This document shows, in pieces, positions 28,495 through 34,370 of a stretch of DNA of 64,000 nucleotides. Position 1 is the stretch's first letter; each line of letters starts with the position of its first letter. This DNA comes from an uncultured Alphaproteobacteria bacterium (lineage in GTDB: Bacteria; Pseudomonadota; Alphaproteobacteria; HIMB59; GCA-002718135), in contig CACLJX010000002.1 of assembly GCA_902607435.1 (NCBI GenBank), positions 1-64,000 of the forward strand, written 5' to 3'. Below the pieces are notes generated by a model. That model saw only the letters and a list, made by a program, of their open reading frames with translations. It was not told the origin of the DNA and searched no databases. A program made the position numbers and the translations under genes.

Positions 28495-29151
28495 TTATTG
28501 ATATTTTTTAAAATCATCATTTATACCAAAAGAATGATATTTTAATTTTTTATTTTCAAAATAAGAACATACTAAAAAAATTTTTAAATTATATTTATTA
28601 GATAAAGCCGAAATAAAACCCCACCACCATTTTGGATGAAATAAAGAAACATGCGCGTTTCTTCCATCATCTAATATAATATGGGCAGGATAACAAGCTA
28701 TGTTTAAAAAAACAATTTTTTTTGAAAAAGAAAGAATTTCATCAATAACCCAATTTAAATCTTGATAAGGGATATGCTCTAAAACATCTATTGAAATAAC
28801 AATATCAAATTTTTTATCTTTAGGTTTACAAAATTCGATAATACCTGGATCATATAAAGTTGGATTAATATTCCAAAAATCTTTCAGAGGTGGAAAAATT
28901 TTATTATTAAATTTTCTTTCCTCAAAATAAAAATTACCTTTTCCTGAACCATAATCCAACATAGTTTTACAATTGTTTTTCTTTATTAGTGTTTGTATAA
29001 AATCAGCGAAAAAAAGTGTGGCCCAACCGTTATATGTCTCTTCAGGTAATTTTTTTTGGTTATTACGTTTAAAAGAACCTTTTAAATGAATTTTCTTATA
29101 AATTTCTGTTAGTTTTATATAGTCAGGAGATGGGTTTTTAGAGTTAAACAT
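28495..29151 (-). CDS. Class I methyltransferase, paralogue of 30316-30987
   Basis: A 218-residue methyltransferase-fold protein with motif I TMLDYGSGKGNF (about 64-75), LYDPG (about 99-103), and DIVISIDVLEHIP (about 116-128) as the acidic strand-4 region. It shares the block order NPSxxY, LDYGxGKxxYY, LKDxW, YDP, IDVLEHIP, KKIVFxxxACY, NAH and FKKY with the gene at 30316, so the two are clear paralogues. They flank folD and yggT. The start overlaps the end of folD by 8 bases. Substrate unknown; similar proteins occur in marine bacteria and their phages among glycan genes. Confidence 0.75.
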   Translation of the reverse strand: MFNSKNPSPDYIKLTEIYKKIHLKGSFKRNNQKKLPEETYNGWATLFFADFIQTLIKKNNCKTMLDYGSGKGNFYFEERKFNNKIFPPLKDFWNINPTLYDPGIIEFCKPKDKKFDIVISIDVLEHIPYQDLNWVIDEILSFSKKIVFLNIACYPAHIILDDGRNAHVSLFHPKWWWGFISALSNKYNLKIFLVCSYFENKKLKYHSFGINDDFKKYQ

Positions 29152-30037: not shown

Positions 30038-30319
30038 TTACCTTGGCCAATATTCAATTAATAAACTTTGTAAAAACCATAATAGTAGATAGACAATTAT
30101 AGGTGAAATATCTATGCTTCCAAAGAAAGGAACAAATTTTCTTACTAATCTTAAGCTTGGTTCGCATAATTTATATAGAGTCTGCATTGCACTAAATACG
30201 AAACGATTTGAAGTATTGATTATATTAAAACTTATTAGCCAAGCTGCAATAATATATATTAATAAAATAAATTTATATAGATTAATAATTTGTATTATAA
30301 GTCCTAATAATGAATTCAT
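30038..30319 (-). CDS. yggT: YggT family membrane protein
   Basis: A 93-residue protein of the YggT family: two hydrophobic segments (about 3-27 and 68-88) separated by a conserved amphipathic stretch with ALYKLCEPSLRLVRKFVP-like residues and the SIDISPIIVYLLL segment. Members are small inner-membrane proteins of uncertain function, linked to osmotic response and membrane protein placement. It overlaps the end of the upstream methyltransferase gene by four bases and precedes folD by three, a tight co-transcribed set. Confidence 0.88.
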   Translation of the reverse strand: MNSLLGLIIQIINLYKFILLIYIIAAWLISFNIINTSNRFVFSAMQTLYKLCEPSLRLVRKFVPFFGSIDISPIIVYLLLWFLQSLLIEYWPR

Positions 30320-30987
30320 TTTATTGAAGAATATTTTTTAAAAGTATCATTTATTTCAATACATCTGTGCACCATTTTATTATTGTCTGCAAGAAAATTG
30401 CAAAAAGCAATAATTTTTATTCCTTTAAATTCCATAGCGCATTTAATAAGCTGCTTTTCCCACCAATCATAGGTTTGAATATTAATATGTGCGTTTTGAC
30501 CATTAGGTAATATGGCGCTTGCTTCATAACAAGCAACGTCTATAAAAACAATTTTTTTTGTAAGTGAAAAAAAATCTCTTAAAACCCAGTGAATATCAAG
30601 GCTTGGAATATGCTCTAATACATCTATACAAATTGTTAAATCAACTTTGTTATTCGTTAGTTTATTATATTTTTCATAACAGGGATCATAAAGATTGACT
30701 TCAACATCCCAGTAATCTTTTAAGCATGGATAAGTAGACTTGTTTGTTTGAAAACCTTTGTGATAATATTTTGCTTTACCACATCCATAATCTAATAAGC
30801 TTTTACACTTATTTATATCAATAATCTTTTTTATAATTTTTACAAATTGTCTTGTTGAAATTCCATCATATGCATTTTCTTTACTTATAAATTTGTCTAA
30901 TCTATTAAATCCGTTTTTATGCATTTCTTTATAGCAATCTATATTCTGCATATATTCTTTTGAGGGATTTTTTTTAGAAAAGATCAT
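30316..30987 (-). CDS. Class I methyltransferase, paralogue of 28495-29151
   Basis: A 223-residue methyltransferase-fold protein with motif I LLDYGCGKAKYYH (about 64-76), LYDPCYEKY and DLTICIDVLEHIP. It aligns along its whole length with the protein at 28495-29151, including the shared N-terminus (KKNPSKEY) and C-terminus (NDTFKKY), so it arose by duplication followed by strong divergence. It lies eleven bases after the ccmE-ccmG fusion gene on the same strand and could be read from the ccm operon. Substrate unknown. Confidence 0.75.
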   Translation of the reverse strand: MIFSKKNPSKEYMQNIDCYKEMHKNGFNRLDKFISKENAYDGISTRQFVKIIKKIIDINKCKSLLDYGCGKAKYYHKGFQTNKSTYPCLKDYWDVEVNLYDPCYEKYNKLTNNKVDLTICIDVLEHIPSLDIHWVLRDFFSLTKKIVFIDVACYEASAILPNGQNAHINIQTYDWWEKQLIKCAMEFKGIKIIAFCNFLADNNKMVHRCIEINDTFKKYSSIK

Positions 30988-30998
30988 TAATTCAATTA

Positions 30999-31853
30999 TT
31001 ATAAGAAAGGAATGATGTTATTTTTAACAATTTCTTTTGTTATTGGTCCTACATGTTTAAAAATAATTTCTCCTTGCTTATTAGTTAGAAAAGTTTTCGG
31101 CAAAACAAGAACATCAAATTCCAAACCTATATTTCCTTTATAGTCAGTACCAATAAAGCCATAAGGATTTCCTTCTTTATTTAAAAAATTAATAGCGTCT
31201 TCTTTTTTGTCTTTGTAATTTATGCCAATAATTAATAAATCAGGAAATCTATTTTTTAATTCAATAAATAATGGATGTTCTATTTTGCATGGAGCACACC
31301 AAGAGGCAAAAAAATTTATTAATGAAATTTTATTATTAATATCCTGATTTGATAAAATGATAGTTTCATCCATCAAGCTTGAAGTTGCAAATTCAGGAAT
31401 CTTTTCATTAGAATAATTATTGTTCCAATGTTGATTTTCTTTGAGTTGTTTTTTTATAGATGCAGGCATGTAATTTTCATCATGTTTCGCAAAAACTTTT
31501 TCTGCTTTTAATTTATTTTTTTTAATTAAGTATCCTTCTGCAACCGCTCCTTTTTCCTCACGAAAAAGATCAGGTAGAATGCCTTGATATTCAACAAATA
31601 TATCTTTTTCATTATCAGTAATAATAAAAGTTATAAAATGACTATTATTTAACTTATTATTAATGGAACTTTTTTTTATAAAACCACCTATTCTTACTTT
31701 TTGATTTATTTGTAGATCCGACTCAAGTAGTTCAGAGGGAGTATAAAAAAAAATTAAATTCTTTTTGGAGTTATTTAATATTAAAATGACTGCTCCTGCT
31801 ATCAAGATTAAGGACAATAAGATAATAATTAATCTTTGTATTTGAATGGTCAC
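30999..31853 (-). CDS. CcmE-CcmG fusion: haem chaperone joined to thiol-disulfide oxidoreductase
   Basis: One uninterrupted 284-residue protein. Residues 1-135 are CcmE: a membrane anchor (about 8-27), an OB-fold with FFYTPSELL (35-43), YQGILPDLFREEKGAVAEG (89-107), and the haem-binding FAKHDENYMP, where H124 would bind haem covalently and Y128 is the axial tyrosine. Residues about 150-284 are CcmG/HelX: FFASWCAPCKIEHP with the redox pair C186/C189, and a cis-proline in VLPKTF (P252). CcmG normally has its own anchor; here CcmE's anchor would hold both domains in the periplasm. The start is GTG, overlapping the ccmD stop (GTGA). The gene sits in the helX slot of an alphaproteobacterial ccmABCD-G operon. 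Confidence 0.9.
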   Translation of the reverse strand: MTIQIQRLIIILLSLILIAGAVILILNNSKKNLIFFYTPSELLESDLQINQKVRIGGFIKKSSINNKLNNSHFITFIITDNEKDIFVEYQGILPDLFREEKGAVAEGYLIKKNKLKAEKVFAKHDENYMPASIKKQLKENQHWNNNYSNEKIPEFATSSLMDETIILSNQDINNKISLINFFASWCAPCKIEHPLFIELKNRFPDLLIIGINYKDKKEDAINFLNKEGNPYGFIGTDYKGNIGLEFDVLVLPKTFLTNKQGEIIFKHVGPITKEIVKNNIIPFL

Positions 31854-32037: not shown

Positions 32038-32736
32038 TTACAAAAGTTGTTTTCTATCCAATATTTCAGATTTTATTCTGACAATAGCAAGTAACAAGCC
32101 AATTAAACTGAAAGAAATTGTCATAATGATTAATGGCCATAACATAGCAGGGTCTATAGATGGCGATGAAAATTTACTTATACTTGCTGGTTGATGGAGT
32201 GTATTCCACCAATCAACAGAAAATTTTATAATAGGAAGATTAATAGAGCCAATTATAATAAACAAAGCTGTTATTTTTTCTCCTACTTCTAAATTAGTAA
32301 ATGAATGTCTTAAAAATATTATTATTAAATAAATCAAGAAAAGAATAAACACTGATGTAAGTCTAGCATCCCATACCCACCATGTGCCCCACATAGGTTT
32401 GCCCCATAATGATCCTGTAATTAAACAAATTAAAGTAAAAACAGCTCCAATAGGCGCTACAGCTGTGTTAATAATAAAACCAAAAGGTATTTTAAATGCA
32501 AGAGCAACAATACTATAAATTGTCATTATAAAAAAAGTTAATAGAGATAGCCATGCAGCCGGCACATGTACATACATTATTTTTACAGTTGACCCTTGTT
32601 GATAATCATCCGGTGATATAAAAAAGATAAAAATTAGACCTATTAAGAGACTTATAATAGATAATGAAACGAGAGGTTTAAAAATAAAATCTGCAAATTT
32701 AGTAAATTGACCAGGATTAATAAAAATTTTAAACAT
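32038..32736 (-). CDS. ccmC: Haem exporter protein CcmC
   Basis: A 232-residue inner-membrane protein that loads haem onto CcmE. It has six hydrophobic segments, the tryptophan-rich periplasmic loop GKPMWGTWWVWD (112-123), and the two conserved periplasmic histidines, H57 in YVHVP and H180 in WNTLHQP, which ligate haem. Its start overlaps the ccmB stop by one base. Everything expected for CcmC is present, so the CcmE domain of the downstream fusion has a working loading partner. Confidence 0.96.
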   Translation of the reverse strand: MFKIFINPGQFTKFADFIFKPLVSLSIISLLIGLIFIFFISPDDYQQGSTVKIMYVHVPAAWLSLLTFFIMTIYSIVALAFKIPFGFIINTAVAPIGAVFTLICLITGSLWGKPMWGTWWVWDARLTSVFILFLIYLIIIFLRHSFTNLEVGEKITALFIIIGSINLPIIKFSVDWWNTLHQPASISKFSSPSIDPAMLWPLIIMTISFSLIGLLLAIVRIKSEILDRKQLL

Positions 32737-33410
32737 TATTTATTTCTTATTGCTATCTTAATACAAGTTGCACTAATCCATGGTGTTATAGCTAAAAATA
32801 GCATCAGTATTCCAAGCAATATATTTAATTGAGGTGTCACAAGTACAGTAGTTGAGTTAATAATATTTACGCTAAATATTATTATAGGAATACTAAATAA
32901 AATTATTATTACGCTTCCAATTGCAAAGTTTTTGTTATTAAGTAAATTCATTGAACCAGAAATTGATGATAATGCAGTTAAAATTGGAGAACTAATTATA
33001 AAAGTTAAAATTAATAAAATTATTTTGTCTGTAGTTACATTTAAAATTAGACAAACTATTGGTATAATAATAAGGAAAGGAAGTTGAAAAAAAACCCACG
33101 CTGTAATTATTTTAATAATTACTATTAATTCTAAAGAGATACCACTTATATAAAATAAAATTAAATTACCATCATTAAAATCATCTTGATATAATTTTTT
33201 TAAAGATAAATTTGTGCTCAATAATATTAATGTCCAAATTATTCCTATGCCAATTTGACTATATATTGCTTTATCAGGACCAATCGCAAAAACAAAAATT
33301 AAAACTCCTAAAATAAAAAACACAATTACAGTCAATACATTGTAAAAATTTCGAAAAGTAATCAAATATTCTCTAAGAAAAATAGATATAATTGATCTAA
33401 ATATTAGCAT
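32736..33410 (-). CDS. ccmB: Haem exporter ABC permease CcmB
   Basis: About 224 residues from the ATG at 33410. A longer frame starting at 33485 only adds 25 residues translated from inside ccmA. The protein has six hydrophobic segments and an amphipathic N-terminus (FRSIISIFLREYLITFRN), followed by FAIGPDKAIYSQIGIGIIWT-type CcmB sequence; the usual length is about 220. It is the membrane subunit paired with CcmA, whose ATPase activity drives release of haem-loaded CcmE. It overlaps the ccmA end by 14 bases. Confidence 0.92.
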   Translation of the reverse strand: MLIFRSIISIFLREYLITFRNFYNVLTVIVFFILGVLIFVFAIGPDKAIYSQIGIGIIWTLILLSTNLSLKKLYQDDFNDGNLILFYISGISLELIVIIKIITAWVFFQLPFLIIIPIVCLILNVTTDKIILLILTFIISSPILTALSSISGSMNLLNNKNFAIGSVIIILFSIPIIIFSVNIINSTTVLVTPQLNILLGILMLFLAITPWISATCIKIAIRNK

Positions 33411-34020
33411 AATGTTCCAATGGCAAATCTTCAATGCTCGTGATTGGAGGATAAAAATGTGAAGAAAATATAACCATTCCTCCATTTTGAGAGTGATTTA
33501 TTAAAGTTTCATTAAAAATATTTGTTGTTAGTTCATCGAGACCCGAATATGGTTCATCCAAAATCCAAAGTTTTTTTTGTTCTATCATTAGTCTACATAA
33601 TTCTAACTTTCTAATCTCACCATATGATAGGTATTTTACCATTACATTTTTATAAATGTTCAGCTGCAGTAAATTTAATAGTGATTCGATCATTTGATCA
33701 CTTATTGATGACAAAAATAGTTTTTTCCAAAATAAAATATTTTCATAAATAGTCATATCTATTTTCGAAGTATTAGTATCCATTATATATGTGAAGTTTT
33801 TAAAAAAAAGATGTGAGTCTTTTTTAATATTTTTACCATTCCAATAAATTTCTCCAGTTGAAGGAACTAAAATGTTTGACAGTATTTTAATCAAAGTTGT
33901 TTTTCCTATTCCATTCCTGCCCTTAATTTGAATTATTTTTTTTGGAGATAATGAAATATTTATATTGTGAAATATGGTTTTGGAACCTCTTTTAAAAGAC
34001 AGGTTATTAGTAAGTAACAT
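33397..34020 (-). CDS. ccmA: Haem exporter ATP-binding subunit CcmA
   Basis: A 207-residue ABC ATPase with Walker A GRNGIGKTT (34-42), a short ABC signature LSYGEIRKLELCRL (about 127-140) and Walker B LWILDEPYSGLDE. The family's signature is LSxGQ; here it is LSYGE, an odd but not unique change. First gene of the ccmA-B-C-D-(E-G) operon and divergent, past a terminator and the histone-like gene, from acnA, an arrangement seen in other alphaproteobacteria. Length is normal. Confidence 0.95.
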   Translation of the reverse strand: MLLTNNLSFKRGSKTIFHNINISLSPKKIIQIKGRNGIGKTTLIKILSNILVPSTGEIYWNGKNIKKDSHLFFKNFTYIMDTNTSKIDMTIYENILFWKKLFLSSISDQMIESLLNLLQLNIYKNVMVKYLSYGEIRKLELCRLMIEQKKLWILDEPYSGLDELTTNIFNETLINHSQNGGMVIFSSHFYPPITSIEDLPLEHYANI

Positions 34021-34184: not shown

Positions 34185-34370
34185 CTACCTTTTTCTTCTT
34201 TTAGCAGCTTTTTTCTTTTTCTTAGGAGCTGCTCTTCTTTTAGCAGCTTTTTTTCTTTTAGGTGCAGCTTTTTTTCTTTTAGGTGCAGCTTTTTTTCTTT
34301 TAGGTGCAGCTTTTTTTCTTCTAGGTGCAGCTTTTTTCTTCTTTGCAGCTTTTTTTCTTTTCTTTGCCAT
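34185..34370 (-). CDS. Histone H1-like Lys/Ala-rich DNA-binding protein
   Basis: A 61-residue protein made almost only of Lys, Arg, Ala and Pro, built on a repeated KRKKAAP heptad; it resembles the C-terminal tails of eukaryotic H1 and bacterial H1-like (Hc2, AlgP-type) proteins that bind and compact DNA. It has a textbook AAGGAG ribosome binding site six bases before the ATG and its own terminator, so it is likely a strongly expressed, separate gene and not a shadow. Low complexity makes family assignment by sequence alone unsafe; the charge and heptad are direct observations. Confidence 0.75.
   Translation of the reverse strand: MAKKRKKAAKKKKAAPRRKKAAPKRKKAAPKRKKAAPKRKKAAKRRAAPKKKKKAAKRRKR
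34240..34344 (-). repeat. 21-base tandem repeat encoding KRKKAAP heptads
   Basis: Two perfect 21-base copies (34261-34281 and 34282-34302), a third with one difference (34303-34323), and partial copies on both sides. Each copy encodes one KRKKAAP unit, so slippage would change protein length in whole heptads without a frameshift. Confidence 0.85.

Follow-up and report, generated by a model that had tools for sequence, protein, structure and literature searches.

A natural CcmE::CcmG fusion in the marine HIMB59/AEGEAN-169 clade, most likely formed by deletion of ccmF

In System I cytochrome c maturation, the way in which haem delivery is coordinated with apocytochrome reduction is unsettled (PMC3884852). 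In a 64,000-nucleotide stretch of DNA (the window) from an alphaproteobacterium of the marine HIMB59/AEGEAN-169 clade (PMC10308909), one gene appears to join the haem chaperone CcmE to the thioreductase CcmG. An earlier note on this DNA had proposed that such a chain would bring both substrates of the CcmF/H ligation step into one molecule. The locus raises the question of whether the fusion is real, how it came about and whether its two halves work together.

Results

One frame encodes CcmE and a CcmG redoxin domain

The gene is a single uninterrupted minus-strand frame of 284 aa (31853 to 30999), with a GTG start at 31853, overlapped by the stop codon of ccmD, and a stop at 30999; the plus strand carries stop codons throughout the locus. 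Both expected profiles scored well above their curated cut-offs, Pfam CcmE (PF03100) at residues 35-131 (E 4e-29, 101.2 bits, cut-off 24.6) and Redoxin (PF08534) at residues 149-273 (46.7 bits, cut-off 26.6). An AlphaFold2 model, built from an alignment of 55 rows, contained an anchor helix, the CcmE beta-barrel and a thioredoxin fold, with a mean pLDDT of 91.7 and a pTM of 0.62. Such values would be expected of two rigid domains joined by a flexible tether, and a loose stretch indeed separates the two folds (residues ~121-149, pLDDT 63-65). In Foldseek searches the model matched CcmG of P. aeruginosa, B. japonicum and E. coli (E 1e-13 to 1e-15) as well as the CcmE subunit of the CcmABCDE complex (8ce8_E, 4e-12) and CcmE of E. 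coli; Foldseek and phmmer together returned the CcmG structures 3kh7, 1kng and 2b1k and the CcmE structures 8ce8_E and 1sr3. Pfam, AlphaFold and Foldseek thus agree with the earlier note that one frame holds a full CcmE and a CcmG/HelX thioredoxin domain, and H124, Y128, C186, C189 and cis-P252 all lie where it had placed them.

The N-terminal half has what defines CcmE of System I (E. coli, PF03100), namely a single membrane anchor (helix 2-31), the OB-fold and the HDENY haem tail. It is encoded directly after ccmD, downstream of ccmABC, and is the only copy found. Its H124 and Y128, within FAKHDENYMP, align with those of relatives (54-63% identity over the full length) and correspond to H130 and Y134 of the E. 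coli protein (PMC10457321). Whereas ordinary CcmE ends about 20 residues past the haem motif, here the C-terminus continues into the redoxin. The His by which CcmE binds haem sits in a flexible C-terminal tail (PMC10457321), so a domain added beyond that tail is sterically plausible.

The C-terminal half shares with the CcmG/DsbE/HelX/CycY thioredoxins (1kng, 2b1k, 3kh7) the fold, WCxxC together with the E and H downstream of it, and the cis-Pro (C186, C189, E192, H193 and P252). Its orthology with the relatives' CcmG is indicated by a tree (support 89, not starred) and by the same locus. It differs from them in having no anchor of its own, the CcmE anchor standing in its place, and in its fingerprint, where GVxGxPETF has become DVLVLPKTF.

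Table 1. Features of the fusion gene, its operon and the second ccm cluster of the same genome
Feature	Position	Strand	Basis or context
CcmE::CcmG fusion gene, 284 aa	30999..31853	-	
CcmE moiety, residues 1-147 (anchor helix 2-31, OB-fold, haem tail)	31413..31853	-	PF03100, AlphaFold
Haem-binding HDENY motif, H124 and Y128	31470..31484	-	sequence
Fusion junction / flexible linker, residues 131-149	31407..31463	-	pLDDT 63-65
CcmG redoxin moiety, residues 149-284, without CcmG anchor	31002..31409	-	PF08534
CAPC redox motif, C186-C189	31287..31298	-	sequence
Degenerate CcmG fingerprint, DVLVLPKTF for GVxGxPETF (G247D, G250V, E253K)	31089..31115	-	comparison with 105 natives
ccmD, 40 aa	31850..31972	-	size, hydrophobicity, position
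ccmC	32038..32736	-	PF01578
ccmB (listed frame; actual start probably downstream, near 33411)	32736..33485	-	PF03379
ccmA ATPase	33397..34020	-	PF00005; syntenic with relatives
ccmF-ccmG-ccmH cluster without ccmE	contig C10, L032:7322-10211	-	an ABC/outer-membrane gene set on one side, an agmatinase gene on the other

Between ccmA and acnA lies a 61-aa frame of Lys/Ala/Arg-rich repeats (AAPKRKK units; 34185-34370, minus strand), which resembles a small histone-H1-like DNA-binding protein.

The same fusion occurs in a second genus

Among 162 genomes of the order, one frame covering residues 1-284 was found in two, the window genome and G003, a MAG (JAGFWP01, sampled at 150 m, sample code V_ETNP) from another genus in this family. 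The G003 fusion has 289 aa and 63% identity, and lies on JAGFWP010000049 (G003:C44). In a 385-genome alphaproteobacterial sample, the window genome alone spanned both domains among the best-scoring matches listed, and no CcmE::CcmG fusion was present in 72,556 plasmids.

The second copy also answers the concern, raised in the earlier note, that an assembly or sequencing artefact had joined two genes. An independent MAG carries the same junction at the same operon position, at this degree of amino-acid divergence, and ccmF is absent from both loci. A chance join in the window assembly is thereby excluded, and we give an artefact practically no weight.

The fusion locus is the family operon without ccmF and ccmH

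The earlier note had set the gene against a layout of ccmABCD-helX with a separate ccmI-E-F-H operon, which would imply a ccmG at the usual helX position that had gained a ccmE; this idea is not supported. The family is arranged otherwise. In relatives, acnA is followed by a divergent ccmA-B-C-D-E-F-G-H, then by a periplasmic binding protein, folD and argG, and about 2.4 kb separates ccmE from ccmG, with ccmF in between. The window shares the acnA boundary and also has folD/argG downstream, with ccmD, the fusion and a methyltransferase gene in succession; in G003, the binding protein directly follows the fusion. The fusion locus thus equals the relatives' operon minus ccmF, the CcmG membrane anchor and ccmH. 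CcmE is preserved down to its last residues and leads directly into the beginning of CcmG's soluble domain, so that the junction is where these two native ends meet. Given the order ccmE-ccmF-ccmG-ccmH in relatives, the join points to loss of the intervening ccmF.

The methyltransferase gene is one of two similar SAM-methyltransferase-like genes (30316-30987 and 28495-29151, minus strand), which have a small membrane protein gene and folD between them. At their site, relatives carry a periplasmic amino-acid-binding protein after ccmH.

A foreign ccmF-ccmG-ccmH cluster lies elsewhere in the genome

Contig C10 of the window genome encodes CcmF (644 aa), CcmG (176 aa, with the intact fingerprint GVYGIPETF) and CcmH (142 aa), and these are the only copies of CcmF and CcmH in the genome. 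The C10 CcmF is not part of the starred clade formed by family CcmF (support 99). It shares 41-45% identity with family CcmF, compared with 55-62% within the family, and many other alphaproteobacteria give it higher scores than its own family does. By these sequence comparisons the C10 genes are xenologs from outside the family; the CcmF placement and identities rule out that they are displaced native genes. The corresponding agmatinase loci in G003, G004 and G001 differ from the surroundings of the cluster, and no ccm genes were found at any of the three. The redoxin of the fusion, in turn, groups with the family's CcmG by identity and by tree (55-63% identity, against 40% to the C10 CcmG).

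The fusion as the cell's only CcmG is not supported, given a separate intact ccmG beside ccmF and ccmH on C10. Of the separate intact ccmE and ccmG that the earlier note had named as grounds for refutation, only the ccmG was found; a search for a second ccmE came up empty in the window genome, whose assembly is 84% complete, so that another ccmE could sit in a gap.

These data suggest that the fusion most likely arose from a deletion of ccmF that followed the acquisition of foreign ccmF, ccmG and ccmH at another site in the genome. The ancestor of the window genome and G003 would have gained, or already had, replacement lyase genes; native ccmF and ccmH would then have become dispensable, and a deletion could have joined ccmE to ccmG in frame. 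In G003 (91% complete) we found no CcmF and no further CcmG of this kind. The missing CcmF, and the empty counterpart of the C10 insertion site, weaken the case for a prior arrival of foreign ccmFGH in this genome. Its acnA contig stops 434 bases past acnA and the fusion contig is just 4.8 kb long, which indicates that the assembly breaks around the fusion locus; we take the G003 lyase genes to lie in an assembly gap.

Whether the fusion formed once depends on the tree. A 23-gene tree, mostly of acnA-region genes, places the window genome and G003 together (support 77/99), as a single origin predicts. A ccm-only tree pairs the window genome with G001 (94/99) and G003 with G002 (88/90), and taken as is would mean two separate fusions. 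The 23-gene tree does not support two independent events, which we consider less likely; a single origin is the simpler reading, although not proven.

The window redoxin has lost three fingerprint residues and remains under selection

In a reference set of 105 native CcmG sequences, 18 positions were at least 99% conserved. The window redoxin retains 15 of them, including W185, C186, C189, E192, H193, D215 and P252. The three losses, G247D, G250V and E253K (codons GAT, GTT and AAA; 100%, 99% and 100% conserved in the natives), all fall among the four of these 18 positions that lie in the fingerprint, a clustering with a chance probability of 4/816 (~0.005). The G003 redoxin keeps 18 of 18, with the fingerprint GVFGLPETF. 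In E. coli CcmG, E145 of the fingerprint is critical for the complex with nDsbD (PMC5909903), and the glutamate that contacts DsbD is among the three residues lost. The window genome encodes a DsbD-type transporter in a 684-aa frame (G000:C1:87261-88918), with a redoxin frame just downstream, and this protein is possibly the reductant source for Ccm redoxins. With a DsbD-type protein encoded and the docking residues gone, the normal electron donor probably no longer serves the fused redoxin, while it probably does serve the C10 CcmG.

Between the window and G003 fusions, pN was 0.22 for the redoxin and 0.24 for the CcmE half, with pS of 0.65 and 0.73 (pN/pS was used in place of dN/dS proper, synonymous sites being near saturation). 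Both halves are under purifying selection. Identity to unfused relatives is 53-58% for the redoxin and 54-61% for the CcmE half, without stop or frameshift. Outside the fingerprint the redoxin is therefore constrained about as strongly as the CcmE half, indicating that it is not simply decaying.

Discussion

We favour, with moderate confidence, a natural fusion by deletion in which the CcmE half works, the C10 CcmG performs standard thioreduction, and the redoxin is redundant or re-specialised. As the only CcmE found, with all haem-handling residues in place, the CcmE half very probably serves as the haem chaperone. The chain would be inserted in the membrane through the CcmE anchor, accept haem from CcmABCD at H124, Y128 acting as a ligand, and deliver it to the foreign CcmF/H, the redoxin travelling along on a linker of ~20 residues. 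Since the fingerprint lacks its DsbD-docking residues and the catalytic residues are kept, the standard electron route, from the DsbD-like protein through CcmG to CcmH and the apocytochrome, most likely runs through the C10 CcmG. The tethered redoxin would then be redundant or re-specialised for handling thiols, for instance as a holdase for those of the apocytochrome close to the haem carrier.

The idea closest to the earlier note is a bifunctional protein that carries haem and also reduces the apocytochrome CxxCH thiols, thereby coupling both inputs of CcmF/H. The catalytic residues of both domains are all conserved, both halves are under purifying selection, and in the AlphaFold model a flexible linker lets the two domains reach a common partner. 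In the window genome, however, the loss of G247, G250 and E253 weakens this mechanism, a complete CcmG with an intact fingerprint is encoded beside ccmF and ccmH, and a fusion made by deletion requires no functional coupling; we regard it as rather unlikely. For G003, judged from its sequence, bifunctionality is the more natural interpretation, and the fused domain there may still be a working CcmG, with its fingerprint intact and no other CcmG of this kind found. One might suppose, at the other extreme, that the redoxin is a passenger in early decay and that the CcmE half alone matters. Degeneration of three invariant fingerprint positions alongside a redundant CcmG would fit, but the similar pN of the two halves and the intact frame speak against it, and we think it improbable. 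A more speculative proposal builds on the fusion as a tethered machine: a redoxin whose docking loop was re-tuned in the window lineage, with no need of DsbD, would prepare or hold CxxCH thiols at CcmF/H as the CcmE half presents haem. We offer it only tentatively.

A natural CcmE::CcmG chain suggests that the pathway tolerates a tether between haem delivery and thioreduction, and it provides a ready-made construct for asking whether thioreduction is accelerated or replaced by such a tether. On the reading favoured here it is also a clear instance of a fusion created by loss of an intervening gene once xenologs supplied the function, and an example of how a 'Rosetta stone' fusion can exist without functional coupling.

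Single chains that combine components of one assembly line occur in other systems as well. E. coli CcmH is a fusion of CcmH and CcmI (PMC3601427), and CcsBA is a fusion in epsilonproteobacteria (PMC3884852). Those fusions join lyase/chaperone parts or the System II synthase, whereas here a haem carrier is joined to a thioreductase. A full-text search of open-access papers found no CcmE-CcmG fusion, so that, as the earlier note had supposed, the combination is apparently undescribed, its parts being known. Two further long ccm frames were noted in the course of this work. A single 901-aa CcmE-CcmF-CcmG frame in G540 (L173:3294-5999, minus strand) crosses two 100-base N gaps and was discarded as an artefact. 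In G464, CcmE and CcmF share an uninterrupted 880-aa frame without N (L172:1605-4247, plus strand), a possible CcmE::CcmF fusion in another alphaproteobacterium.
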